Positions 19,186-40,400 of a DNA stretch of 64,000 nucleotides are shown piece by piece. The notes under the pieces were generated by a model that saw only the letters and a list, made by a program, of their open reading frames with translations, searched no databases and was not told where the DNA came from. A program made the position numbers and the translations under genes. The DNA lies in the NCBI GenBank assembly GCA_037576195.1, contig CM075102.1, positions 23,122,745-23,186,744 of the forward strand. Direction: 5' to 3'. The stretch comes from Phytoseiulus persimilis. Lineage: Eukaryota; Arthropoda; Arachnida; Mesostigmata; Phytoseiidae. Positions within the stretch are counted from its first letter, which is position 1. Every line of letters begins with the position of its first letter.

Positions 19186-20655
19186 TCAGAACATGCAGAG
19201 CCTGAGCGACTGGCGTTTGCTCCTCATCGTCTGCGAAAAGGCTTCGCTTCATCAGAGCTGAAACATGAAGTAGGGGGAAAGATTAGAAGAATACATCAGA
19301 CCATCTTGTTCTCGTCCCACGTTCCCAAATGTCTTACTCGAGGTTTCACATATTCTGCACGTCCGCCTCATGGAGCGGAGTAGGTATTGAGCGTCTCGCT
19401 TGGCTGTCGAGATGGAAATGCTCTGCATCGAGAAATGTCCCAGAGATGCGAACAAAAAATATCAGTCAGAAAACTGTTCCTACCGCACGGTGAAAGCAAC
19501 GACCTGGGATGTCAGTACAATCAGAATTGGTGGAATAGAAACTGAATGGTTTTCGGTGGAATGCAAGCCCATTCAGACTTCTTCAATCTGAGGGAGGATG
19601 TCGGAATGAAGCCACATTTCCGGGTAGTTTTGGTTAGTCTCGGACTCTGGAGGAAGTGTCCGAATAAGTCACGAGTAGAGAACAGATCAACAGCTTAATC
19701 TCGGTATCTAATCGGCTCTTCCTGAGCCCGGTCAACCATCATGGATTGGGCAGTGTCGATGAATATTCTCCCCCGATCTTTGCCGACTATGTCAGTGCTT
19801 TCTCGTTTGGGGTTCCCATACTCTACCACCCATCCTGCGTAATCAGACATCATTCCCTCCCTTGTTGCAGTGACAGAAACAGGTGTAGCTTTCAAATTGT
19901 ATTTTATTTCAAGACTCATTAGTCGTTAACTCCGAGCCCGACTTCCCGTGCTATGTTGGTGATGACTGAAAAGAATTGGATTGCGTTACCTCGCGTTTCG
20001 GGAGCAAACAACAGAGACTGCTCACAGACCTCAGGTGGTTTTTGCAAAGAGACAGTTGCACGCGTGTTGCTCCAGGTCAACGAGGCGCCTAAGATCCCTA
20101 TCCCGCTCCGACCCTAGATCATCCGCCGCACTGGGGAGACTCCTCAGCGAATCAGCTGTCACGCTCCGGGAAATCCGACACCTTTCGATGTCAGACAGAG
20201 ATGCACGCTTTCTTCTGGATGACCCGTCTGATTATCTATTTCAAAACATCGTTTACCGTTCTTTTGCCCTGCTCATCATGAGGATCATTGTTGAAACGAT
20301 GGCATGTGGGTTCAAGTGATGTCCAAGTCCCCGTCTGTGATGCTGAATCCCTCCATCGTAGCACCCTCTAACATTCGGGTTCGCGGCCCTTCTCTCACCG
20401 GCTCCTCATGTTCCTCTCCCTCGTGAATCAGTCTGCTCAGTCTGCTATCCCGTCAGCAGTGTCTCTCGCGACAGTTCGTTCGAAATACGTTCCAGACGAC
20501 ATCTCGTTGCTGTGGGATACGGAGGTCCTCGGGATCGAACCGTAATTCAAGGAAAATGATGAAGTTCCTAACGAAGAGTTGACGGAATTCGTCCGTACAA
20601 CCACCCAGAGAAAACCGGACGGCAGATATATTATCCGTTTACCGTTCACGATACG

Positions 20656-21456
20656 TTGGGAGACAACCGCGAGCTGACGCTGCGGCGTCTGAAAAGTTTT
20701 TCGGCTCAGACAAGAAAAAATCAAGCGCTCTCAGAGGCAGTTGATGCCGAAATGGTGGACCTGTTGGATCAGGGTTTCATTGAGTTCGCGAAATCCCCGA
20801 GATCGGGGGAACAATGTCATTATCTGCCGCCGCAAGCAGCTCCGGCGGAAGCCAAGATGAAAGTGAGAGTGGTGAACGATGCAAGCGCACGTTCGAGGAA
20901 CGAAGCTGGCTTGAACGACGTGTTGTTTCAAGGCGAGAATCTCATCGCAGACATCGTCTCGGTCATACTCCAATTCCGGCAGCTTCCGATTGCGATCACA
21001 GCTGACATAGAGAAAGCATACCTGCAGTTCGAGATAACTCCGGAACATACGAAGTTTCTGAAATTCTTGTGGCCGTTAGGCATGAGTGAGAATCCGAGAG
21101 CCCCTCTCAGGGAAATGCAGTCGTGTAGGTTATCTTTCGAGCTGGTCAGTGCGCCTTACAAGCACTGTGCAGGCATCAGGCTCCATTCGGAGAATGTGAT
21201 CAGGAATCGGCCGCAGGACAAGGAGTTACTCGAGTTCATGAAAAAGTATTTCTATGTAGATGGTTTGATCGCAGTCGCAGAGAACGCCGGGAGCGGAGAG
21301 AAAGTTGTTGAAATCTTACACGAGTCGTTCAAGGCGGGCTGCTTTCCGTTGAAAAACGGTCGACGAACTCTGCGGAGTTGGGTAGATTCATACAACATCG
21401 AAACCCCGACGCGACAGTCACATTCGACGACGAGAATTTCAAGTTTCTCGGAGTGA
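20656..21456 (+). pseudogene. BEL/Pao reverse transcriptase fragment, altered active site
   Basis: RT motifs are in order: KVRVVNDASA, LNDVLFQGENL, IAITADIEKAYLQFEI and a FYVDGLI box. The last should be YVDD, and the second catalytic aspartate reads glycine here, a one-base change. The frame then shifts near 21400, where the downstream A17-like part continues in another frame. Confidence 0.8.
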
Positions 21457-21875
21457 GATGGAATCAGAGAGAAGACTCCATGCATATAGATGTTTCAAAG
21501 ACGATCACATTTTTCGAAACGAGCGTTCCAACGAAGCGATCCCTGCTCAAGGGAGCTAGCCAGGTTTTCGATCCGGTGGGAATCGTGGCACCGATTTCTT
21601 TGGGCATGGAGTGTTTACTGCAGCGTCATTGGCAGAAAAAGTTGGATTGGAATCAGGTTCTGGCCGGGGAAGATCTTGAAAAGTACAGGGATGTCACGAG
21701 CAGGCTTGAAAATATCAGTCACGTTAGCGTAGCAAGAGATTTTCTCGCGGCAAAAGGCAGCCGGGACACTGCGGTGCGAGAGTTGCATGTGTTTGCGATG
21801 CAAGCCTCACAGTTTATGGGTGCGTGGCATACGCGCGGGATGTTTCGGATCGAAAGAAGATCACGGTCTCGTTGA
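21378..21875 (+). pseudogene. BEL/Pao RT-RNase H connection (A17-like) fragment
   Basis: The frame reads FKFLGVRWN, then KRSLLKGASQVFDPVGIVAPI, a typical BEL/Pao segment after the RT, and HVFAMQASQFMGAW. It overlaps the RT fragment in a different frame and runs out of similarity after 21830, where RNase H pieces continue in another frame. Confidence 0.75.
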
Positions 21876-22450
21876 TCATGGCGAAAGGGCGAGTGGCTCC
21901 GTTGAAGGGGAATCGGTCAATCCACAGGCTAGAGTTGTTGGGCGCGGTTTAGGCAGTAAGGATCACCCACAAGGAAAAATCACCCAGGGAGTTGGCTTGC
22001 CGGTCGCGTTGACCAATTACTGGTGCGACAATGCATGCGTGCTAGCCTGGATTCGCGACAAGCCAGAAAGATGGAACGCGTTCGTCGAAAACCGGGTGAA
22101 GGAAATCCAAGCGTCTTCCGAGTCGAGTCAGTGGAGCTATGTCCGATCGGAGGAAAACAGTTGCGACTTGCTTCCAAGAAACTCAGCGCTGGATTCGAAA
22201 GGAATCGGAATTTTTGATTACACGGTCCAGCGTGGTTAAAATCCGGCAGGAAACCGCAAGATCATAGCTTGAATCCGAGCGAATATGAGTTCGAAGTCGC
22301 AAACGAGAAACGGTCTCAATGTTTCGTAGGAACGGTCGCGGTGAAACAGGATCCAATCGACATTAGGCCCATGTCATCGTGGGCAAAGACAGTTAGGGTC
22401 TTCGCATATTTGCGGCGCTGGAGGTTATTCAGGCGGGAGTTGAAACCGCA

Positions 22451-23325
22451 GTGGCTGGTGTCGATCGCCACGAAAGAATACACCAACGCCGAGACAATTA
22501 TCCTGAAGAACATCCAAAGCCAGCACTTCCATGCGGATTTGGAAGCCGGGTTCGAGAATTTGTCGAAGCGAAGTCAAATTTATCAATACAATTCGTGGAC
22601 AAGCAGGGCCTGATTAGGTGCCGCTCCAGGTTGAGCAATCTCAAAAATGTTGACTTCGAGACGACGAAGCCGATAATACTGCCTGGGGAGGATGCTCTGG
22701 TTGATTTGTACGTTCGTTGGACTCACGAAAAAGTGTGCATGCATGCTGGCAGCATACCGGGTGTTATTATATAGAAGGCGTTTTCTGATTCTGCGGGGTC
22801 GGCGCGCGGCGAAAAAAGCAATCAGTCGGTGCAAAGAAGTCGTGCGCGAAGTTCAGAGCTCAACCAGCTGTGGAGTCTACTCCGGATTTGCCAAAATTCA
22901 GAGTCGAGACAGTTCCAGCTTTCAGTACTACGGGGGTGGACGCGGCAGGTCCGATCTGGATAAGAGATCATAATGGCAAGAAAGCCACGGCGTTCATCAT
23001 GTTGTTCTGCTGCTCGGTTTCGAGAGCGGTCAGAATGGAGCTGGTCGAGAATTTGTCGACGTACGAATTTCTTTTGGCAATGAGAAGGTTCTACAATCGG
23101 AATCCAACGGTGGTCTGCTTCTTTCCGGATAATGCGTCATCCTTTCGAAGGGTGGCGAACGAAATCAAGCTTTTGTTCGACTTGGCGAGATCTGAGGAGA
23201 CTCAGAGTTTTCCCACAAAGCATAGGATAGAGTGGAAGTTCAATACGGAAAGAGCACCATGGAGGAACGGTTTCGTAGAGAGACTCTTCGGGACGATAAA
23301 AAAAAGCCTTTGTGGGAGGTTCTAG
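22451..23325 (+). pseudogene. BEL/Pao integrase fragment
   Basis: The zinc-binding region is broken between frames. The core reads TTGVDAAGPIWI (first catalytic Asp), FFPDNASSF (second Asp) and APWRNGFVERLFG (catalytic Glu), in the DDE spacing. Frameshifts before and after inactivate the pol frame. Confidence 0.75.
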
Positions 23326-23660
23326 GGAAGAATTTACCATCATTCAGAGAGCTCGAAACAATTCTCACAGATATCGAAAAAATCGTGAATGATCGACCGT
23401 TGGGATGCGTCAGCAACGATCCGAATGAACCTTTGCCAGTGACTCCGGCGGATTTGCTGTATGGCAACACGACGCGTCCAGCGTTGCCGGAGCTGAACGA
23501 GATCTTGGAAACACACAAGTTGCGACTCGACCGCGAGCGACACGCACACGATGCAAGCGATACGCTTGCAATTCCTTTAACCAAGTTCGCTTCGCGGAGA
23601 CCTGACTGGCGACTGCGGCCAGTAGACCAACATTCGGTGTCTTTCCTCAAGGATCCCGGG
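23232..23660 (+). pseudogene. BEL/Pao pol C-terminal tail fragment
   Basis: The stretch SFRELETILTDIEKIVNDRPL followed by PLPVTPADLLYGN is the conserved tail after BEL/Pao integrases. Family similarity ends near 23540 and the frame then runs into unrelated sequence. Confidence 0.7.
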
Positions 23661-26600
23661 CGGGTTTTGCAACACCACTCATGTCACAACCCTAGAAGCG
23701 GCCGCGGCGGCATAAACAAGGAGATAATTTCCCTCATAGGAATTCTTCGCGTTCTGCCGATCACAACTTTTCTTCTCAGCGTTTCAACGAATCAGGTGTT
23801 CCCGGGGCAACAAGTGATCAAACGATGTATTCCACAGGAAGGGGCGCATAAATTAGGTTTGAACACTCATTTAAGAGGGCAGCGAAAGGACCCTCTCTAG
23901 AGGCTGAAAGTGCTTAGCTCAACCTTCCCGACGGCGGTGCTGCTGCCGCTGTTGGCAAGCCGTGGCCCCACGTTGGAAAGGTTCACTCGAGGGTTAGTCG
24001 CTCCCGCATGGCTACAAATGGAAAACGAGCCATTGAGTCGGACATTCGCGAATACCATCGCATTCTGGATGCGGCGAGAGCCAAACATCAGGGCCAGGCA
24101 GCAGAAAGAAGCCGTTCGAGGTCCCGGAGAACAACGAGTGCTAGCGATATGCATTCAATTCATCTGTGTACGGCTCTGTTCCGGATGAATAAGGGTCTCG
24201 AAGAGACGTCGGTATGCGTTTGTCCGCTTTGCCAGAGGCAACATGCAGCCTATCGGTAGGGTTGAAGATTAGCGACACGCGCGGTCAGGTGAACATAAAA
24301 CTCAAGCCTGACACCCAGTTCAGCTCGACCTGAACATCTCAGGAAAATGGCATCGGTAGCTAGCTGCTGGCGAATGGCGTTCAGATTTCTGTTCGAGTGG
24401 AATTCAGGCTCGCAGCCCCGCATGATGTGAACCGAAGGTAACGCCCAGCATCTGTGAAATTCACAGGAAGCCATTCAGCGCTGGTTAGGGCTAGAAGCGA
24501 ACGGCTGAAAGCTCCAGAATCTCTTCCCGGTAGTTCTTGTAACAGGCAGCGATCTCTATATTGGTCTCTGAAAGCTGCGCCCCTTCTCCCTACAGCTTGT
24601 CGGCTGCTGCAGCAGCCGCGGCTGCAGGTCCAGACCACAGAGTGGTGGTTCACAGCGTGTCGAGTCCGTTACTTGGGAAGCTGCCCCTTTCTTTGGAACC
24701 TGACTGCTCTCCGTGCGCTCGTTAACTTCATCTGCTTTTCCTACGCTTATCAGCGGTCGAGGTATTCGTCAGCCCATGTACACCGGTCCCGTTCGCCCGG
24801 ATACAAAGACAGCGTCATCGTAGAGCTTCTCGACCTGAGTGCACAAGCCTGAGATCCGTGAACGTAAGTCGGCGTGGCCTGAGCTGAACAGGTGCAGGAA
24901 CTCCCCCAGAGCTTTCCCCTCACGTGAATCACCGGTAGCTTTGGTCCGTATAGGATTCGACTTCGTGGGCGAGTCGAAGAGTAGCAAGGGTAGAATAAAA
25001 CCTAGTGCCTAACCGATCGTTCTGGACACAATGTTTCAACTTTGAGCTCTGGAAGCTTCAAGATCAAGGCGGTTCGGGCGGTCGAGGGTGTGTTCTCGAG
25101 CACGATTGGCTTCTGGGAGCTTTGACTTCGGCGGGTTATCTTGTGACGTTCCGAGCAGGTGAAGCGGTTCCGACTCCGGTAGTGGCGGTCCTCGAACCGG
25201 TTCCTTGTATCCCCTCGAGGTGATCGAATTCCGAGCTTTCGAGTTCGATATCGCTGAATCGGCAGCGACTTTGAACCGTTTCCCGCATCCCGCAAAGAAT
25301 CCTCACATGATAGTGCGGTAAGTTAGACTTGTAGGCACACGAAATCGTCGGTATTTGGCGGTCGTTGTGGTGATGGCGGCGTGGTGCGCTCGTTTTCGAC
25401 CTCGGGCTCTTTACAAAACCGAGTCTATCTTCCTCCTTGTCTCCGAATTGCATCGGTTCGGCAGCCATTAGCTGCGTCACCGGTATTAGTTCGCACCTCA
25501 AGTGGGCTTTCCTTCCGAACGACTTCGAATCCTCTCATCGCCTGACCCGCCAGCTCGTTGTATCACACGCTTGCTAGGTGATATGTTGTCACCGGCACAA
25601 CTGCTAAATACATTCTTCAGCGTGAACGGAACTCACTATTCGCCTATGAATTCAACCCGCGAATTCGGAAGACCTCCGATCCCCGATGATCCCCCGAGTA
25701 GCACGTCTCAAAAGAACACGGCGACAACAACAAGGATCGGGGCCCCCGAATCCTATTTATTCTTTCGCTCCCTCGCGCCGGGAAGAGCACTCTGAGAGCT
25801 ATTGACACCGAATCGAGGATGGTAACCGAAGCATCACGAGAATTCGCACCATTGAGAAAGACAATGCAGGTGAACAGAACCGGTGTTATCCCTGCTGTTG
25901 TTAGTGGTGAAGGCCCTCCCGAGCGAACAGGGGACCCCGAACGTTGACCCGGATCTCCGAACAGGCTTCTTCGATAATTCCTACTCAGCGCATTCGAAGA
26001 TCGGCCTGAAATTCATGCCAATGTTGAAACCTCGACTCGCACGCTGTCACGATATCGATAAGTTCCCCCGCGTGGCAGAGAGAATCGAAGGCAGAGTGTC
26101 GCAGATCACGAGGATCTGGCCAAGCATCGAGAGCAGAAGAAGTCCGTTCGGTAGATGCGATTTCGGGAATACATCCCGGTTTGCAAATGCTATTTCAGCT
26201 CTTTCTCCTCTCTCTGTACGGGAACCGACGCGCTCGACAAGATCGACTCGTACCTTTCCAGAGCCTCATGATCCGGGCTGGACGTTCGTCGCGGCCGCGA
26301 TGGCCGCGCCAATATCCGCGGATTTCGACCTTCAACGGCGACGACGGAATTCCGCTGGAGTTCCGCTGGAAGTCGGAGAAATACCCGTTTTCAGCGTTCG
26401 ACGGGATCGAGAGATGCGCAGCCCTGGAGAATCACGAAAAAATTGGAGCGATCGGCGGAGAATAAGCAACGAATCGATGAAGCCAGTGGTCAGCGGTATC
26501 GCAACGAGTTGAGATGCGCGCCCACTCTTTCTCGTTCTCTGGCAACACATTTCATATCGACGCATGTCGTTGAGAGTTTGCGCAGGCAATTAAAACCGTC

Positions 26601-26769: not shown

Positions 26770-27650
26770 GCGGAGGAATTCCCGAACGGGTTTTTAATGC
26801 AAGGGTTGACCGTATTTTCTGCACCACATGCAGTATCCCTTTAGATTAGAAGCGTAAAGACAGTTGTTCGGAACATCTCAAGAGTTCAGGTCATAGAAGA
26901 AGAGAGCAAAATCGCCAGAGCGCCGAGGCCAAGAAATCAAAACTGCAGTACACTCTCGTGGAAGCTTCACGAAGATGCGTCGGAGCGAAAGAGGAGCAAC
27001 AAGCCACCTTCGTGAGTCTAGTCGAAGCCTTTGCTGCTGTCAACGTCCCGTTACACGCCCTCGATAATCCCACGCTGAAAAACTTCCTGGATAGCAATTT
27101 GAGGTCCTGTTGATCGATGCAATCAGCGAGTATTCTGCGCCGCAACCATTTACTCGCAGCCTTCGACGTCCACGTCAGGAATCTCCAAACTCTTCTCGAG
27201 AAGAAGAAATCTGTTGCAATCGTCTGCGACGAGACAACAGACGTGGAGGATCGTTATATCCTGAACGTGCCAGCAGTTCCATGCTGCGAACCTGGTGGAA
27301 CCAAGGTCAAAGCCTTCTCATTGGAGTGCCTTCTTACATATACCAAGGAGCCAGAATCAAACTGGTGATCACGCTAAGCCAGTTAGACTTCCTCCTACGC
27401 CTGTTGTCACGAGGTGGAATAGCTGGTTCAGAGCGGCCCTTCTATCACGCCGATCATCTGGACGAGTACTCTGAGTTCTTCGGACGTGAGGTCTCCGGCA
27501 CTTCTATTCCAGCCATATCTTCGGTAGGGAGCTTGTGTAACTCCTAAAAAGTAAAAGAGCAACTTGCTCAACTGAAGAAGTATGTTCCTCATCTGACAGC
27601 AACGCTGACGAAACATGGTGGCTTTTTCACTCTCCCATGATGCCGCGAAC
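26770..27650 (+). pseudogene. Decayed hAT transposase (CGGBP1-related)
   Basis: In one frame: a BED/CGGBP1-like finger (RIFCTTCSIPLD, a stop, then KRKDSCSEHLKSSGH), LVEAFAAVNVPLHALDNPTLKNF, and the first catalytic region KSVAIVCDETTDVEDRYILNV. Next come VVTRWNSWF and YHADHLDEYSEFF in shifted frames. The order matches hAT transposases whose N-terminus gave rise to vertebrate CGGBP1. Stops near 26847, 27112 and 27366 plus frameshifts make it inactive. Element ends were not identified. Confidence 0.75.
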
Positions 27651-28462: not shown

Positions 28463-31400
28463 GTAAGTCTTGATTGCAGAGGATCGTGTGTTTGTGTGCT
28501 TGCACCTAGATGTCTCCGTATCTTCCGGTGAACATCCATTAATGATTTGCAACCTCCATGCCGAAATTCGCACATGGAAGATGCTTACGCGATGCACGTC
28601 CTTTCCATTATCGAAAGCCTGAGGGGTCCTTTCTCAGTCATGAGCATTGGGGAGCGCGTTTCCTCGATAATATGACTATCGATAAGGCCGCTCGTGAGCG
28701 GAGTGGCACTTTTTTCGTGTGAAACTCTCCAAGAGCTCTGGGTACCATCGAACGAGCGTATCGAGAAAAGTCAGCGCCAGCAACCAGGCGGAATCCGCTG
28801 TTCGCGTGTATCCATTCCTGAAGAGTCTGTTTCAGAACTTTCCAGAACTGTGTCAAAACTGGCGAGCCTCCATGCTTCACTGAGCCTGAATGGGACGAAT
28901 CATAATTTATAGAAGTAGCTCTTCAGCTGCTAGGACTGCGACCGTATGTCTGCGTCACATGACTTCAAGCGCGAGGCATATCTGAAGTTCCCCTCTTGAT
29001 GCGCCTCCCCCTAGATGACGAGCTCGAGGCGACTCGCCGAGGTGGATCTCATTAAGAAACGTCCGAGGACGGAAGCTCACGATTTCCTGCTGAGCAGCTC
29101 TGTTATAGCGTTAGTTGGACTCGGACTAAGGGACGGATTCCACGGAAATGCACGAACTCGGCAATCTGTCGAAAACAGTATGCACAAGGCATCTCGAATG
29201 TAGAAGAGTAGAATTATGGAAAGAGAAAGAATCATGAGCCGTAGTTCCAAACTACTGCTGGATCCAACTCTGACCATACGAGTCTGCGAACATCGTTGAC
29301 CCTGGATTTAGGCTGTGGACATTCGCCCGGAAATTCAGGGAAACACCCTCGTTCCCACTCTCGTCTTTCGAAGTAGTAGGTCATAGGTGGGGCTGAAAGA
29401 AAATCGCGGAAGTTGCGGAAATCGCGATTCTTCACCCTTTCCGCGATTTTCGGCCTCCTCCGCTATTTATGTCGTGTCCGGCGATCACCGCGATTACCGT
29501 AGACGTCCGAATCACTGCAGTAGCTTCTGAGTTCGTCTCCGAGCATAATCCCGGGTGCGACAAAGTAGACTTGGCGAGGGCGGAGCTCAGAATGTTCTTG
29601 AACTCGATTGAGGATTTCAATGGCTTCAGTCACCCAGCGGACTTTTGGCTCGCCTCCGCCCAAGGCTTCACGAAACTTTCTCGAATAGCGCTATCGAGAA
29701 ATGACCGCCGTAGCGTCGCCGAGCCAAATTAGGTCGTCTACAACATGCTCCATCCGAACGCCGGTATGCTCTGGACCTTGGAAATCAAGCTCAACGCAAA
29801 TCGATATTATAATATTCCAAGTCGAATCCGTTCTCATTGTCTGAGGTGGACAAATTCCCAGGCTGTGATAGGAGGAGGACCTCTCCAGTATTGCAAGGTA
29901 GTCAGGTTGTGTTCTAATGGGAAAAATAGTCAGCTTCTGCATGGTTGCACCATGTGCTCAGTTTTGATCAGGTTTTCTGCGGAACTCACATGACCTCATC
30001 ACTCTCCACGATTCTCGAGCGATTTACTCGATTTCCGATCCGTCACCGCGACCCGCCCGCGATAGTTGCGATTTTTGACCGCGACAAATTCGCAGCCCTT
30101 GTCATAGGTACGACTTGAAATGTCCCATGGGAATCACATCTCTCCGAGCGTGCGGCCTGGGACCGACCGCTGACAGATAATTATCATTAGAGCCCCCATA
30201 TGAACGGACATTTGTCCGAAGCAGAGTTGGGCAGATTCGAATCACTTTGATTCGAATCACTTTTGATTCGAATCAAGTTGATTCGAATCACCTGATTCCA
30301 ATCAAGAAACATCGAATCAAAAGTGATTTGAATCAAAAACCGTCGAATCAGGCTGATTCGAATCAAAAGTGATTCGAATCATTTTGATTCGAATCAGGAT
30401 CGATCATCTGATTCGAATCAGAAAATGATTCGAATCATTTTCTGATTCGAATCCTTACTACATATACTCGGCTTAGTCCCGGACCAGTCTGACCATACTT
30501 TTCAAAAGCTGGAGGGGTGATTCCGAGACCAATCTGAGCATTACTTCCCAGTTGTTCCCAGAGTTGGGAAGGAATGCTCAGATTGGTCACGGAATCACCC
30601 CTCCAGAGTTGGGAAGTAATGGCCAGATTGGTCTCGGAATCACCCCTCCAGAGTTGGAAAGTAATGTGCGGACAAACTGACAAACTAAGCCGATCATATA
30701 TAGTAGGGATTCGAATCAGAAAATGATTCGAATCAGAACATGATTCGAATCCTCTGGTTCGAATCAAAAATGATTCGAATCAGGATCATCGAATCACTTG
30801 ATTCGAATCAGAATGATTCGACTCAGAAGCTATCGAATCACGTGATTCGAATCTGCCCAACTCTGGTCCGAAGGACATCTTTCTTGGAACCGGACGAGGA
30901 GGCGGACATGCGAATTCCGGACTTTCTCCAGATAAATTTACATGTGAGAGCATCGAATGAGGACTCCTTTGCTCCGACTGGCTTAGGTACCGTCATAGGC
31001 TCTTTATTCGTCGAAAAGTAAGTCGGCATGAAATTTATCGATAAGAGCCTACTAAGGTTCGATCGCGACAAACCATGTCTCCAGTCCGGAAAAAAGTTAT
31101 TGTGCATGGAAAACGATCGCTTCACTCGTACATTAGAGAGAGGATTTTTGACCCATGATCTCCTCAAGCCGTGTTGCAAAACGATCTTCGGGTATTCTCT
31201 AAATCGAGTTCAAGATGCCGATTAGGCAATCCTGGAAATTGCGCAACCGTATCCAGCTGCTTTGCCAGGTCTTGGTCATCTCAGGAGGACTTCAGCGACG
31301 CGCTGTCGGCGGTTTTTGCTTGAATTTTCGAGACGGACACTTTGATTTCCTCAAATTTTCAGGAGAGTGGAATGTGGTGCTCATAAATGTACCCCAGCGT

Positions 31401-34400
31401 ATGATCACTGGCGCAGGTGGTTTCATATCGACGGCGCCATCAGAGGGCGTCACCTCGCTTGCGAAGTACATCTCGCCATCTGTTTCGATACACAGCCCCA
31501 CAGATAAAGAGCGAGGACCGATATTCCGGCTGTTGGGAGAGCGCTCTTCGCTCGATCCTTTACGATACCAGAATCATTTCGCGCTCTATTGCCTTCTGAC
31601 CATCAAACTTTTAGATGAGGGAATGCATTCAGAGCCATGGTTGACCACCTGATCTGTGAGCCTGAAAACCGGACATTCTCTCGGTTGCTCCAGAGAACCG
31701 GGAAGCTGACAGTAAAGGACATGTCCGGTCAAACGGGTGCCCTGAGTATCATATATTGGGCGATTTAAATCGTTGCGGGATCTCTAGGGGGGCCGAACGG
31801 GGAAACATCATCCACGTGAGATGAGCAGGGATGCACCCGAACCCAGACGAACTGGGTAATTGACCCAACGTCCAGATCTCTTCTCGAGACTGTGTCCGGT
31901 ACCTCACGGAGCTCGCTCACCAATGAAATGATCTGCAATAGATGCTCCAGGGACGACGCTGGAAAACCCGTCTCTGTCGAATGAAATTGGATTGATCTCT
32001 GAACGTGTCCGTTTCAGACAGTGAACAGGACTGCCGGTTTCCGCAATACACCATAACATTATCGCACGTGAGAACCTAGCTGCGGCGTGCCGCTCCTGAG
32101 GGCTGCGAGTCTGTCAGACTCAAACCGATCTCCTTCGCCAATTTGAGTCCGCACGCTTCGGGCCCCCATGGACTTTCGGTGCGAGGGCCGAGAGATCGAA
32201 AGTCTCGTTGCGCCCATGTTTCTCGAAAATTCGTGTCGCCGCTTTGGGTCGGTTCCGATCTCTCTAACATTACGGTTGCGCATCCCGCTCGATGGTGATT
32301 CGTTCGGCTCAGCCTGAGTGCTCCGCTTTTTGGGGCTGTGTTCATCATGAGTTTCTGCATCGCGGAGACGATCATCTGGGACGCACATGTCGTGCCGGAG
32401 ATAATGGCACGATGCATGTGCGGGCTCCTAACTGTGTCTGAACAGATCAGGCGGCATCAGTCGGATGTATTACTGAGCGCAGCTTTGTATCTGATGAGGT
32501 CACTTCATCACCGTGTTGACACGTCGATCTTTCACGCTCATCATGACTGTGAAGTCGAGTAAACAGGCCTTGATCTTTGATGCGTCTCTAAATAACCTCC
32601 CTCATGTCAAACGAGCGCTACACTAAATCGGCAAACGCAAAGTGTATACTCTCAGATGTGGGAGACTATCGCGGCAGGAAACGATTCAACATCGTTGCTT
32701 TGAACGTCGTAGGCGATTACGGTTAGGACCTCAGGGTATGGTCGGAAGTATGTGGTTCCTCGAGTAATCAAACTGGTTAGCTCACCTTGAGCATGCCGAA
32801 CAGAATGGCTGCAGAGTTGGGCGAAAGTATTATTCTTGGCCCGCGAACGCATCTCGTAGTAACCATAATCTGGGCCCGAGCTCTCGATTTCGGCTGGCCA
32901 AATGGCTCTATATCTCGTCTCTTAGGTGAGCTAGACCGACGATTATGTTTCCTGCTCGCGCCTTCGTGGACCGCCGTTCCGCGGAATGACGCGGACGACG
33001 AGGAACCCACTTGGCAGTATTATTGTTGGGCACTGCAAGTGACATGCGTCTTGATTCGAAGCCTCAGCGGCGCGGTCGGAGTAAATTAGAATTTAGAGCC
33101 TTCTGAATGCGATACAGAGCCGGTGAACACAGAGAGAACCGTTGACGACATTCTTGGCTTCCGACGAAACTCTGTCCCGGTGACTTCACATGCTATCACG
33201 CATATGATGACCCCTCACTCGAGGATCAGCTGCTTGGCGTGAACGGCGATCGTCCCTAAGATAAACAATCAGATTCGAATCCTCGAGTAGGAGGGCTGGA
33301 AAACCTAGCGCCGATCGTCGCTCTCTCAGGAGATGAGGCTCGTCTATCGAAGTCGAATTGTTCTCCTTCCGTTACTCACGATAGTTTTTGTTTCCAGCTG
33401 CTGACAAGCCGTTCGAGAGGTGAGTCCAAATAGATAATTTCTGCGTAGTTCGTTCGTCCAAGCCTGTTTTTTTTTTCAAAATCGAGGGAATGATGTTCCG
33501 CCGAGGGCTCAGTCGGCTGGGTCCACCGGCTCTAACACCGAGGACCAACACTCGAACGTGTATGTATATCGTCACGCACTTTCGTGCCTGAGCTGCGTGG
33601 GACGTGCTCTGGACGAATTCTCGTTGTCACTTTCCCAAGCTGAGACATCATGTCTGCGCCAATTTACGATCTGTGGAAGATTTACGTTGGGTTCGGTTGT
33701 TGGTTTGCTCGGAAGCAGAGAAGAATAGAGAGCTTCCGGATTTCTCAAGTTCGTTGAACGCTGCTCAGAACAGCACAGCTCCTACATCACGCGCACGTCG
33801 AAGTCATTTCAATGGCGGCTATGCTCGTCAGATGAATTCACATCGGGCATAATCATGATGAGATTCTCGCTCAATCCAGAGCCCAGTCAAGCAGGGAAAA
33901 GTGAGCATCCCAATGATCTGGCCTCGTGCAACGACATTTGTTTGGCACTCGTACTCGTGAGCATCCCGAAACGGCGAACATCACTATGAGAGCTCACGCG
34001 ACTTGAAAGCGTTTTCTGAAAGCTCTTCAGCCTGCAGATCATCTGATGGTCTTCAAACGATGATTTCTCACTTCTACTCCGAGCAGTTGAGCGATTGACT
34101 GAGCCCAGAGTTCCCGGGCATCTGTCGGCCCTCTAGCCATCCACGTGGCGGAAAGCGGAGATCTAAACGTTATCTGGTAGATGAGCCCCCGAGGAATTAC
34201 TCGAACGATATGCCGGCTACCGGTCATTTGTGCGAAGCCCTCAGAGTTGCTTCGAGTGAAGGTCACCACGAGACACTTGATGATGGACGCGTGGCGGAAC
34301 GAATCTTGATTTCGACATCGAAACAAGCTGACGAAAGTACGGTGTGGGTGTGGGAGTGGACAAAACAGGGAAATAAAAAGCGCTGCTGAGCCGAGAGAGC

Positions 34401-37400
34401 TCACCGAGACTGCTACTGCTCCTCGACTCTCTTTGGCCCCGAGCCGTCCAGTGAAACTGAATGGTTTCGTTTTTTATGTCAGTGTCAACGAGAATGAGGT
34501 GTCACAACCTTGAATGATTTCCCCCGTTTCGTCAACTGGGCCCAACGGAATTCGCAACCGGAGAGCACGCGCCTCCCACTTCCCTCATCAGATGTTCCTC
34601 GTCGGATACGTCCATTTCGTGTCAAAGGCGAAGGAAGGTGCATAGGGAAGGGCTCCGGCTATTCCTTCCGGTGTGGCGCCACGAGTCGCCATGTCTCAAG
34701 TGCGCACGAAGGATGGAGAAGCACGGCAACAGACGGGCCGAGGAAAATGCCGAGATTCCCCGCGAGGAGGGGAACTCTCGAAATGAAGGGGAGCAAGGGT
34801 GATCAACCTGGAATTCGAAGCTGCGCGCACCGATTCGAATCAGATCTGAACTCATCTGAGGCTTCGTCTGGGCGGAGAGCTGGCGAATCGATGCGTGTGT
34901 ATTGTACTGGAAGCTTCAATTCGGGCGATTTTTCTCCCTGCGTCATCGTTAGGGAACGGAATCCGATCCGAGTTTGGACCTCTGCTCCGCGATCACCAGC
35001 CGAACTCCTCACGCGGGCTGTTTCTCAGAACTGTTCCGGAATCGCAGTACCGTGACGGGCGATCCTCGAGATCTTTTCGGGAGAAAATCACTCCCCGTGA
35101 ACTCCCCCGACTCTATGAGAAAACCGTTTGCCCCGCTCGAGTACGCCCACCTCCCGGAGACTGTTACCACGTTATCCACGTCACTCAGAGACAACGGCGA
35201 GCCTTGGGGATGAATCAAGCGACGAGGAAGAATTCATGTCACGCGCGTTCAGCTTGCACTTCGTTAACCGGACGGAGACATCTTTCACAATGAAGGGCCT
35301 GATTGGCTGAATGTGCGAGCTCGATGAGGTCACGGTCGATCGGGATGTCCGGAGCCTGTCTATGAAGCAGTTCGAGACAAGCACCGCTCTTATTGAGAGG
35401 CGGAGGAAAGTCGTCTGTTCATAGGGCGCGTCGGAGGAATTCTTGCAGAGAAATGAGTTCCCAGACTCTCACGACTCGATCTCTGGCTATAGGCAAACAA
35501 GAGCAAGATCATGCCCGAACGTGCTAACGAACCCTCTGCGCAAAGCGCTGAACGTTGACGTGCTGAGGTGGTGCATGTGTGACACATTGGCCTCAGCTGC
35601 GCCTTTTATACACATTTTATTTGCAAAGAAGGGAGACCTTCTTCTGTGTAGAACAATCACAACAATCAGTACATTCGCAAATAGATTCAGGTGCTTTGTC
35701 AGTGGCATTTGTAGTGGCACACAACACACTCCTAGAACATGAGTCACCTCTTTTATCTTGTGACCCGCTTGTATGTGAGTTGCTCTGTCCTCTGACCATC
35801 ATATTAATGTTTGGCTACAAGCGAAAACAGAGCGGACCGCACAGTAGGATCTGGTGATTACCGGGGTGCTAATGGATAAACTCATCCTGGAAAACGTGCT
35901 TGCTCGAGCCGAACGGAGGCTGTTCCTGGAGGAGTGGTTCCCTCGTTACTGAGGGACCTAGTCGAAAATCACCTTGCCGGACACATCGGTGAAGTATTAA
36001 AGGCGTCGATACGGCTTCTGAGAAACTTGCGGAAGGAACGGGTGGCCGAATCAGATGCACTGCTGCCGATCGGCGAGAAGTAGTGTCCTCGCGCTTGTTA
36101 GTTAGGCTGATCAACGTTGTCTAGTTGGTCTGAGTCCGGTTTGGTTTCCGCCCTCTGCGAGTCGTAGGGCTCGTCCAAACCGGGGCCCGGTTCGGACGAG
36201 ACTGAGGGTCTGTCTACGTTCTCCTCTAACCTCCTCCTCTCTTCGACGAGCCGAATCTGAGCGTTTAGGCTTTTCCAAGTCAGTCTCGTATCAACATAGC
36301 TGCCAATAGGGTGGCCGTAAAACTCCTGCCCGGGTTTTAGGCACCCAGCCCTGTGTTGATAGCGAACTTCGTTGCATCGCCACCGTTCCGTCTGAAAGTC
36401 GTGCCCCGACGTGCTCCGCAACTGAGTGTCGTCTTCAGATTGGGCTGAGCCGCAAACGCCGACATGGCTTCAAGGTCAGTGTCGACGATTGTGTTCCATT
36501 CACCTCCCGCTCGCCCGTGATCGGCCGATGCTCGTGCGTGCGCTGTGCTCTATTCACTGTGCGACGATTTGTGCGGTCGGTGCAACCTCAGTGGATACAT
36601 CATTGTGTGCTTCATTGAGCGCCAAGGCGGATACACACGGAAGTGTGTTCGGCTTGCCGTTTGTATCCGCAGCTCGCCGCTATATTTAGTCTGTGCGCAG
36701 AGGCCGGCCCACTGCAATAGCTTACTCTCTGTTTAGGGCTGGACGCGGCAGCAGGACCGACCATCTTCCACCATTCTGTCGAATGCCCTGCGGCCTGCCC
36801 GCACCGGGAAAAGAAGAACCAGGGAGAACTAACACATTTCCTCTATTCACCGGTCCTCCAATGAGAGCGAACAGTTTCTGGATTCCGTTCCCGTTCTGAA
36901 AATCGTAGATACGCGGATTTCCAAACAGGCGAGGATCCTACGCTTGCTCATTGAGAGACGTCGAGTTGGGGGACACGGGATGGCTGAACGGTTGGAATGG
37001 ATTTGTTTCTCAAAACGATTCCGCGTCCCCCGTTTTCTTCCCCGTTTGCTCACTCGGCCATCGTCCCCGATCTATTGGATGATGTTGTGGCGTACTCGGA
37101 AGGCGCGGGGACGGCTGCCGGGCTTCAACCAGTCTTTCTTCCCGGATTCCCGACTTCAGACCCGCGTCGGTTGCTCCGCGAGATGAAGATTGAGACGGAA
37201 GTCAGAATTAAAGTGGACCATCTGATTTTCGGAGCTGGGAGATCGATAAGACATCTGAGAACTCCTCGCGGGTTCATCCTATGGCCGTTCGGGACATGAT
37301 CATCCATACTTGCTCGGAATTCCGAACTTCTTCTCCGATCACGGAACAATATCGAGCAGCTGATTCATGCACGGGATGGCGAGCGAGCCGATCGAGCATC

Positions 37401-40400
37401 GCGACGTTCAATCGTACCAAGGCTCTCGGAATTCGACCGATGAGTAAGTTCGGCGATTTATGGTTTTGAGAAGCGGGAAACAACAAGTCGTCTCCTCGGC
37501 TCAGGTCTTCCTCCCTCTGTCCATGAGAAGTGTCACAACCCACCGTTGAACTCTCTCTTGACATGACCTCCCAACCACGAGCTGATGATTGAATGAGATC
37601 ACCGGAATCGTTCGAAGCCTCCTCCTGAGCCCATATCCGAGCTGAACTTACGCGAGTCGTAGTCTTTTCATGAAGTTGTACGTCCACGCATCTGATCGGT
37701 ATGCAGCAATTAAATTTAGACCCTCCCCGGATGGCTTGGTTGGCCCTTTTGTGCGCTGGCGTCTCCTCCGCTGCTGGTTCTTTCTGCGGGTTCGCCCTGC
37801 GGTCGGCCTCGCGTGGTATGCGCTCGCGAGCAGCCCGTGAGCACTTCGCAAACAGGCGGCTGCCAAGCAAGAAGCCAGCAGTGCGGGCGTCCCAGCCGCC
37901 CACGGTCTACTAGAAACAGCCGAGACCGTCATTGGGTCGGTCGGTCGACTCAGTTGGGTGGGCTTCAGCTGGTCGACGTGCGGACCGACTCACTAACAGA
38001 CAGACTCACTGCAAGGCTTTGAGGCGCGCAGGCAAATATGTGTCGATTGGGCAGTTACGCGCGTGTTCCACCTCGATCGCTCGCAGATTCCCTACAGCTG
38101 TCTCCGAGACTAGCAGGCATTTGGTCGCCCAGCAACTCAATCGGAAGGCAACACTTATTCGTTCCCGAGTCGTGTCTGCTAAGCAAAACAGCCGTTCATG
38201 AGGGGTTTACTCTACAGCAGTGGTTCCCTGAGCCTGGATTCCGTGGCCGGGGGCCGAAAGGGTTTCCCTGTGCGGTCTCGCTACTTCAAACTGTAGAACG
38301 TCTGTGTTAGACTGGGGGAACTTCATGGGCACATGCAAGCACGGAGCTGTTTGAGGGGGGGGGGGAATGGAGAACAAGGAGCGTAACCGCTCCTACGTAG
38401 GGGCAGATCCTTTCTCCAAGGTTCTCTCCGTTGAGGCCCACATTTGGGCTCTACTTGCCAATCCCTGGGATTAGGCATTGACACTGGTGACTGCCAATGA
38501 GTAAATGTTCACAATTCCTTTTGGTTTCTTCTGATCTGTTCGTCATCCGTCGCAGAACCGTGTGAATCATCGCGGATACCTTTGTGTAGTTTCTTGACCT
38601 CCTGGGCAAACTTTCCCTATTCTTTAGAGCATTGGCGCAACGATGGCTGCTGATCGGGTAAAGAGATCCCTGCTCGATGACCTAGCTCAGGTCACAATAC
38701 GGGTGAGACGCTCAACTTCCAAACATGATGGGAGTCGCTTGGGGTCCGTCGCGAATCCTGACGGAGCCCTGCGCTCGAAAGTTTGGTTAGTCGAAAGTAC
38801 TGCTGTGCCAGACTTCCCAAGGGTATTCTCCGTCGAGTATGTGTCACAATATATGGACGGAATTGTTGTTGGTGATTCCGGCGGTTTGGAGAAAAATATC
38901 CACACAGCTACTCGGGAGAGCCGATTCAAGTCCCGAGAATCCAACTTTGACCCCGGGTCGAAATTGAGATGGAGCCGAATATCCCCGGTCATTTTAGTCC
39001 AAATCCAAGCCTTCTCTGAATCCGTGAAATCCCGAGGCGTTTGTGCGAGACGAACTCTGACCCGTGCTTCTCCGTGGACCTGAAATCATGAGGGGCATGT
39101 CCACGAAGTTATTGGTGTGTTCGTCTAAATTTTCCTCACCCTCGAACAACAGGCAAATCGATGGAACGGCGCCCGCGTTCGTGAAAAAACCTTCGATTCG
39201 CCAAGAGGACGATGGAGAACTCCTGTTATTTGAATGCCGGATCACCGCCGACCCAAAACCAGATATATCCTGGTTTCACAACGGAACGCCGGTGGTCGAG
39301 AAACCGGGTCGCTTCAAGATCATCGTTCAACCTGACGGCGGACACAACTACAATTGCACACTTCAAGTGTCCGATGTCACGGTTGAAGACGCCGGAAAAT
39401 ATAAAGTCGTCGCGAAGAACGAGCTCGGCGAGAGCAACGCTACCATCTCGCTCAACTTCGATAGCGATGACGCCAACGTTCCCGAAGGCGGTACCAAGCC
39501 GACGTTCATTGAGAAACCTCTGATCAAGCAGAGCGATGACGGGAGCAAGATCACATTCGAGTGCGCCTTGATCGCCGATCCTGCCCCGACGATCAAGTGG
39601 TTCTTGAACGGTGCTCACGTGCCCGAAGGCGCCCGACACAAGTACCGACTGATCTCCGACAAGCATAACCACACAGCAGCTCTCGAAGTTTCAAAGGTCA
39701 AAACAGAAGACGGTGGCGAATATAAGGTTGTTGCGACGAACGCCCATGGGGAGGGCCACGCAACGATAACGCTCAATTTCGATGCCGGCAAACCCAAGTG
39801 AGTTGAATTTCCCCCTCATCTGAGGTCTGCGGTGTTCCGCTGTCTTCATTCTGTGCGGTCAGTGCGTCAGAGGTTTGTTTCTCTCCCACAGAATCCCAGA
39901 GGGCAAGGCTCCTCGCTTTCCGAAGAAACCGACAATCCGACAAGAAGGGGATTCTCTGATCTTGGAGTGCGTTTGTGAGGCTCATCCTTTCCCGGAGGTG
40001 ACGTGGTATCTGGGCTCGAAGAAAATTATGGAAGGAGCCCGACACAAAACAGCTCGCAAAGAAATCTCCAAACACACTTACCAGCTTTCGCTCGAAATCA
40101 GGGTAAGATTCCGGACGGAACCCACTCCGCACCCGGCCGTCATTGGTTGGAGTTAGCGAACGGAGAGAGACGTAATCTCGGTCCTTCGAATGGAACGCAC
40201 GATCAATCAATGAATCATCCATCTCTGTGACCTCCCACCAGGATCCAACGACCGAAGACGGAGGAAGTTACAAATGCAACGCAATGAACGAACTAGGTGA
40301 TAGCAACGCGAATATTACTTTGAACCTTCAAGGAGCAGAGCCTCCGAAGTCCGGAGATCCTCCTACCTTCACACAGAAACCGAAGATCGTACCCAAAGAC

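Follow-up and report, generated by a model that had tools for sequence, protein, structure and literature searches.

Perfect decamer palindromes fill the arms of a recently mobile hAT-type MITE of Phytoseiulus persimilis and are putative transposase-binding sites

The window analysed here, a stretch of 64,000 nucleotides of Phytoseiulus persimilis DNA, maps to contig C2 of the 181-Mb genome, whose assembly has four large contigs (54.7, 52.0, 38.9 and 28.1 Mb). At 30222-30865, in the coordinates as first described, lies an element of 644 bp, bordered on both sides by the same 8 bases, GTCCGAAG, as an earlier note on this DNA had claimed (Table 1). Its terminal inverted repeats are perfect, as was also said there, and measure 24 bp where 23 had been given. 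The tips, each of 12 bases, read CAGAGTTGGGCA...TGCCCAACTCTG; short terminal inverted repeats of this CAG...CTG form are characteristic of hAT elements. Behind each tip is an arm with many copies of the perfect palindrome GATTCGAATC, in which GATTC is followed by its complement. The element holds 16 exact copies of this decamer, 10 in the left arm and 6 in the right, and 4 more with one mismatch, against 0.001 exact copies expected per 644-base mononucleotide shuffle, so the earlier description of arms made mainly of a self-complementary decamer at short spacings holds. The first palindrome occupies bases 13-22 from each tip. The arms have 35-38% G+C in a window of 53%, and between them sits a core of inverted 45-base units. 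The further inverted pair nested inside, reported before, is present, and so are the 45-base direct repeats (30558-30647). The longest ATG/GTG/TTG frame fully inside the element, 110 aa, spans the core and the right arm.

Table 1. Features of the element and its borders (positions in the window).
Feature	Position	Strand	Remark
Left target-site duplication GTCCGAAG	30214..30221	.	same 8 bases on both sides
Left terminal inverted repeat, perfect over 24 bases: tip CAGAGTTGGGCA, then first decamer	30222..30245	+	
Left arm, 10 exact GATTCGAATC and degenerate ones; proposed subterminal transposase-binding array	30234..30453	.	putative function
Starts of exact GATTCGAATC, left arm	30234, 30249, 30265, 30280, 30355, 30371, 30386, 30410, 30427, 30444		
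Core left half, inverted partner of 30565-30645	30470..30550	+	pair 80% complementary
Core right half: 45-base direct units CCAGAGTTGGGAAG... at 30558 and 30603, partial at 30648	30558..30666	+	
Right arm, 6 exact GATTCGAATC and degenerate ones	30708..30853	.	
Starts of exact GATTCGAATC, right arm	30708, 30725, 30742, 30772, 30800, 30844		
Right terminal inverted repeat, 24 bases	30842..30865	-	
Right target-site duplication GTCCGAAG	30866..30873	.	same 8 bases on both sides

The insertion was earlier said to deliver more than a dozen decamers into an intron. The number stands; the intron setting is not established, as four neighbouring open frames that were searched (25874-26509, 27095-27544, 34498-35052 and 38628-39080) gave no Pfam match at E 0.01. 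Further away, retroelement-like open frames lie at 20572-23900, with one weak integrase-core match, below the curated cut-off, at 22789-23322 and none in the frame 20572-21453. Many open frames at 39061-63960 are titin/twitchin-like by eye, and the one tested, 39061-39798, contains immunoglobulin I-set domains. Outside the element, two isolated exact GATTCGAATC decamers occur at 33272 and 34832. Inverted relative to each other (ATCAGATTCGAATC / GATTCGAATCAGAT) and separated by about 1.55 kb, they are not part of any array.

The RNA fold of the element reaches -374 kcal/mol against a mean of -167 for 20 shuffles (z -28). When it lacks a loop, a palindrome of 10 bp forms hardly any stem, and the case for a cruciform role of the decamers is weak, though the whole strand folds far better than its shuffles. 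The arrays might instead serve the host or silencing, as sites for a host DNA-binding protein or as a hairpin source of small RNAs. The strong fold would suit such a role, and so would the two isolated decamers of the window, where about 0.06 are expected under uniform base composition; however, any element with inverted arms is expected to fold strongly, and we regard this explanation as very improbable.

The element is one member of a dispersed family. Counted with up to 3 mismatches, the 22-base end occurs 97+97 times on the two strands of the 181-Mb genome (reversed control, 0), the longer word TGATTCGAATCA 715 times (reversed control, 3), and pairs of decamers 2-12 bases apart 598 times (control, 0). 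The similarity search scored 40 of 1565 candidate places, hence the copy count is a lower bound; the loci fetched comprise 39 from this search, 20 further regions and smaller sets. Exact 8-bp duplications flank 42 of the 45 other copies having both ends in the fetched stretch, so the genome search that had been named as a check agrees with the first description. In the remaining three the duplication is one base off (L086, L090) or two (L037). With L102, compared by eye and showing 2 mismatches, the total is 42 of 46 exact and 4 of 46 off by 1-2 bases. The same duplication in L015 and L016, on a chromosome and a small contig, indicates one insertion, which leaves 41 independent exact duplications. 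Eight loci with one recognised end are uncounted: L018, whose left end lies beyond the fetched stretch, and L035, L041, L046, L093, L094, L095 and L096.

Ac-type hAT transposons make duplications of the form nTnnnnAn, and Buster-type ones nnnTAnnn. Among the 42 exact duplications, which are mostly nTnnnnAn, the second base is T in 34 and the seventh is A in 32, and by this target site the family appears to belong to the Ac-type branch. The joined flanks of L020 align gap-free across the junction to the overlapping loci L052/L094, and the 8-mer there is unduplicated and has one mismatch; this place is a paralogous empty site for L020 and the only clear one among 47 joined flanks compared with the fetched sequence. 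Between copies that differ in their duplications, identity over the aligned columns is as high as 99.9-100%, hence the family was recently active. The copies are short (60-1702 bp), numerous, uniform at their ends and apparently gene-less; in the window element the longest inner frame is the 110-aa one given above. The element in the window is best read as a non-autonomous hAT element (MITE), and the earlier assignment to the hAT-type MITEs is upheld by the many same-ended copies, by their differing and mostly exact 8-bp duplications and by the empty site.

In 47 elements of the family we count 872 exact decamers, 2-36 per copy, in arrays adjoining both tips. The interval between decamers is 14-17 bases, or about 1.5 helical turns, in 514 of 825 cases; the site is frequently extended to TGATTCGAATCA, and the spacers vary in sequence and length. 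The constant position of the first decamer is partly selected, as the paired set was defined with a 22-mer containing it (up to 4 mismatches). The smallest copy, L090, has 60 bp: two tips and two decamers with 16 bases between them, inside a duplication with one mismatch. Exact 8-bp duplications surround the core-less copies L091 (95 bp), L078 (154 bp), L092 (198 bp) and L087 (374 bp). To judge from these insertions, movement does not require the core.

A first comparison of 118 pairs of copies gave divergences of 1.7% for decamers, 6.2% for spacers, 2.1% for the core and 0.8% for tips, and was discarded as inflated by out-of-register alignment. With positions near gaps or other mismatches removed, as a guard against array slippage, 425 pairs gave 1.0% of sites for decamers, 2.0% for spacers, 1.25% for the core and 1.8% for tips; these pairs are not independent, and the decamer columns were picked for exactness in one partner. 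The filtered values are weak evidence for constraint on the decamers.

These numbers bear on the possibility that the arrays are passive, that is, that in the same hAT MITE slippage, unequal exchange or hairpin copying multiplied a short palindrome, and that movement requires only the tip and perhaps the first decamer. The decamers are barely more conserved than the core (1.0% versus 1.25%), the number of exact ones ranges from 2 to 36 per copy, and the 60-bp copy with two of them has a duplication with one mismatch, all of which speaks for passive arrays. On the other hand, the spacers vary where the decamers stay constant and intervals of 14-17 bases prevail, and plain slippage would have copied the spacers as well. 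We hold passive arrays to be unlikely, if clearly less so than a host or silencing role.

We consider it likely that the element is a recently mobile non-autonomous hAT MITE whose arms are putative subterminal transposase-binding arrays. hAT transposases have BED fingers at the N-terminus, with which they recognise the tips together with subterminal repeats. In Hermes, the hAT of Musca, the STR1-STR2 quasi-palindrome at bases 16-22 is cooperatively bound by two BED domains, and a one-base shift of it severely impairs cleavage (PMC10368747). The Herves transposase binds CGATTCAT, with GATTC or ATTCA suggested by the authors as the core, and one of its sites lies at bp 15-22 (PMC3143072). Taken together, the Hermes quasi-palindrome, the GATTC core suggested for Herves and the first GATTCGAATC at bases 13-22 lead us to interpret each arm as an array of putative double BED sites. 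The window family resembles Hermes in having a palindromic site, BED-bound in Hermes, adjoining the tip at nearly equal distance, and in its many subterminal repeats (PMC10368747). Hermes differs in its motif, AAGT/AAGC, in an imperfect palindrome, in asymmetric ends and in having, in the portion of the paper at hand, only one further palindromic pair mentioned (PMC10368747), whereas the window family has perfect palindromes at both ends, 2-36 per copy. Like it, Herves of Anopheles gambiae, also a hAT, repeats a short motif, C(G/A)ATTCAT, with GATTC or ATTCA as its suggested core, at both ends; unlike it, Herves is autonomous, and the part of its description at hand mentions no back-to-back pairing of the motif (PMC3143072). 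The binding-site idea thus fits published hAT subterminal repeats, and by this analogy the 10-letter palindrome is probably a docking site for the mobilising enzyme.

The proposed course of a transposition would be as follows. A hAT transposase supplied in trans would cut at the CAGAGTTGGG tips, and the excised element would be pasted into nTnnnnAn-like sites, giving the 8-bp duplications. Each GATTCGAATC would present two back-to-back GATTC half-sites to two BED zinc fingers of the oligomeric transposase, and the many further decamers may raise the chance of capturing an enzyme that is scarce. The core would travel as dispensable cargo, which the core-less copies demonstrate.

The near-identical copies imply that an autonomous partner existed recently. 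The earlier note had pointed to an autonomous hAT with the same termini as something to look for; none was found in the assembly by searches with the dimerisation domain, the BED domain, the Hermes DNA-binding domain and relatives or by TIR comparison, at least among the matches listed. The Pfam dimerisation domain has 145 genome matches, of which 143 were compared with 102 TIR sites; matches on the small contigs C6 and C70 and many TIR sites of already paired copies were left out, and the TIR sites are those among the matches listed, with late C4 and the small contigs partly covered. Five of the TIR-to-hAT distances are below 15 kb and two below 5 kb. The two nearest were rejected: at C3:23465080 the 154-bp family copy lies beside another hAT, and at C2:11127731 the dimerisation domain appears, by eye, to lie inside a different, nested hAT. 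No partner emerged from the 24 genome matches of the BED domain, compared by eye with the listed TIR sites, or from 56 matches of relatives of one Hermes-like transposase, likewise compared by eye. The Hermes DNA-binding domain gave 0 genome matches at E 0.1; a translated frame of L124 shows a weak match below cut-off. Within 1.5-kb flanks downstream of 30 dimerisation-domain loci, TGCCCAACTCTG with up to 2 mismatches was absent except for CGCACAACTCTG in L050 and L051.

Two other hAT groups of the genome can be set beside the family. Seven loci (L078-L084) carry a hAT of about 2.45-2.49 kb with the tip CAGRGGTGGGCA and the subterminal palindrome GCGGCCCGCGGGCCGC. The 8-bp duplication is exact in 5 of 7 and has one mismatch in L078, no matching 5' end was recovered for L079, and a 647-aa open frame is present in 5 of 7. 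This group shares 8-bp duplications and a similar tip with the window family and differs in its palindrome and in having the open frame. A Buster-type label for it was dropped: TA is central in 3 of its 5 exact duplications, which does not settle the branch. If the arrays are passive, the transposase possibly comes from another hAT family with similar tips, and the tips of L078-L084 would suit this; their hAT, intact-looking with its other subterminal word, could cross-mobilise the family, and the decamers would then matter less. The second group, included in L048-L054, L056 and L058, is a lineage whose tips read CAGRGYTGTG and whose subterminal sequence is GC-rich, with a dimerisation domain in L048 and L051 and a BED domain in L123, which adjoins L048. 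Of eight of its 3' flanks read by eye, 5 have T as the second base and 6 have A as the seventh. In contrast to the window family, no GATT word arrays were seen at the 3' ends read.

The 45-base unit of the core is found in a second context. It also forms arrays, up to about 7.5 kb, in a Helitron-like repeat (e.g. C4:26020191-26027669), which is present at 36 places or more (39 of 1692 candidates scored). In L098, L099 and L100 this repeat ends in a hairpin followed by CTGG, before T, in the manner of a Helitron 3' end; its 5' end was not recognised in the fetched loci. At L049:2587-3261 it lies between A and T, and the paralogue L048 is empty there (one junction read). The diverged hAT copy L102 already carries a related core, hence transfer of the unit from the hAT family to the Helitron-like repeat is more likely than transfer in the other direction. 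A derivation of the unit from the element's own end was tried: a gapped local alignment beats 5000 shuffles in both versions, only 2 points above the best of them, and the older unit of L102 aligns to the tip through a different stretch, so the candidate was set aside. The interior of L019 and the 3' ends of L057 and L067 have in common a tRNA-like box (GGTTCGATCCCCGGCC or similar) and the sequence after it, which suggests a tRNA-derived SINE family with one copy nested in the MITE at L019.

The tip is also found in front of other words. CAGAGTTGGGCA followed by T occurs 21+26 times (control, 0+2). Of 67 exact CAGAGTTGGGCA sites on contig C1, 34 have the perfect 22-mer, and about 140 bases were read behind 20 of the remaining 33 (L103-L122). 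GATT/AATC words are in excess in 14 of these 20, the observed count being reached by at most 10 of 300 mononucleotide shuffles; the same test gave no excess in L103, L106, L114, L116, L117 and L122. Such an excess behind the same tip speaks against passive arrays. Four of the 14 (L108, L111, L118, L121) resemble decayed GATTCGA copies, and the other ten carry other words, e.g. AATCATGATT and GATTATTCGTATGATCATAATC; L112 and L113, with similar flanks, are probably one insertion duplicated. By eye, L107, L109 and L119 continue into a core resembling that of the window element. From the shared tip we infer that the repeats with other words are hAT elements. At one such site, C1:2293935, a BED-like hAT fragment with a broken frame is found 3.3 kb inward (BED at C1:2297282). 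Its pairing with the tip as a partner was not accepted, since by our own estimate about one chance coincidence is expected (169 domain hits, about 200 tips, 5 kb).

These repeats allow a bolder reading, which we put forward tentatively and rather doubt. The tip CAGAGTTGGGCA would be kept and the palindromic word swapped wholesale between subfamilies (GATTCGAATC; AATCATGATT, GATTATTCGTATGATCATAATC and others), recording changes of BED specificity with constant recognition of the cleaved end, and the core arrays would be degenerate copies of the element's own ends, acting as internal decoys.

hAT MITEs and subterminal repeats are known already. The earlier note knew of no described family with this build, and our search of the open-licence PMC literature likewise found no description of the palindrome-array build. 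There, GATTCGAATC is in no paper about transposons by title, nor is CAGAGTTGGG among the matches listed, and the portions seen of PMC3630058, PMC3212995 and PMC2872659 hold nothing resembling it. Arms that are mostly perfect palindromic double sites, together with same-tip repeats that carry other words, were not found described in that literature, and the heavy arrays appear to be an unusual variant.

If the arrays are sites for BED fingers, the family offers natural transposon ends with 2-36 perfect palindromic sites, mostly 14-17 bases apart, a ready series in which the control of hAT transposition by repeat number and phase could be studied. The repeats that join the same tip to other words, if the reading of them is true, would show the DNA-binding specificity changing as the cleaved end stays fixed.
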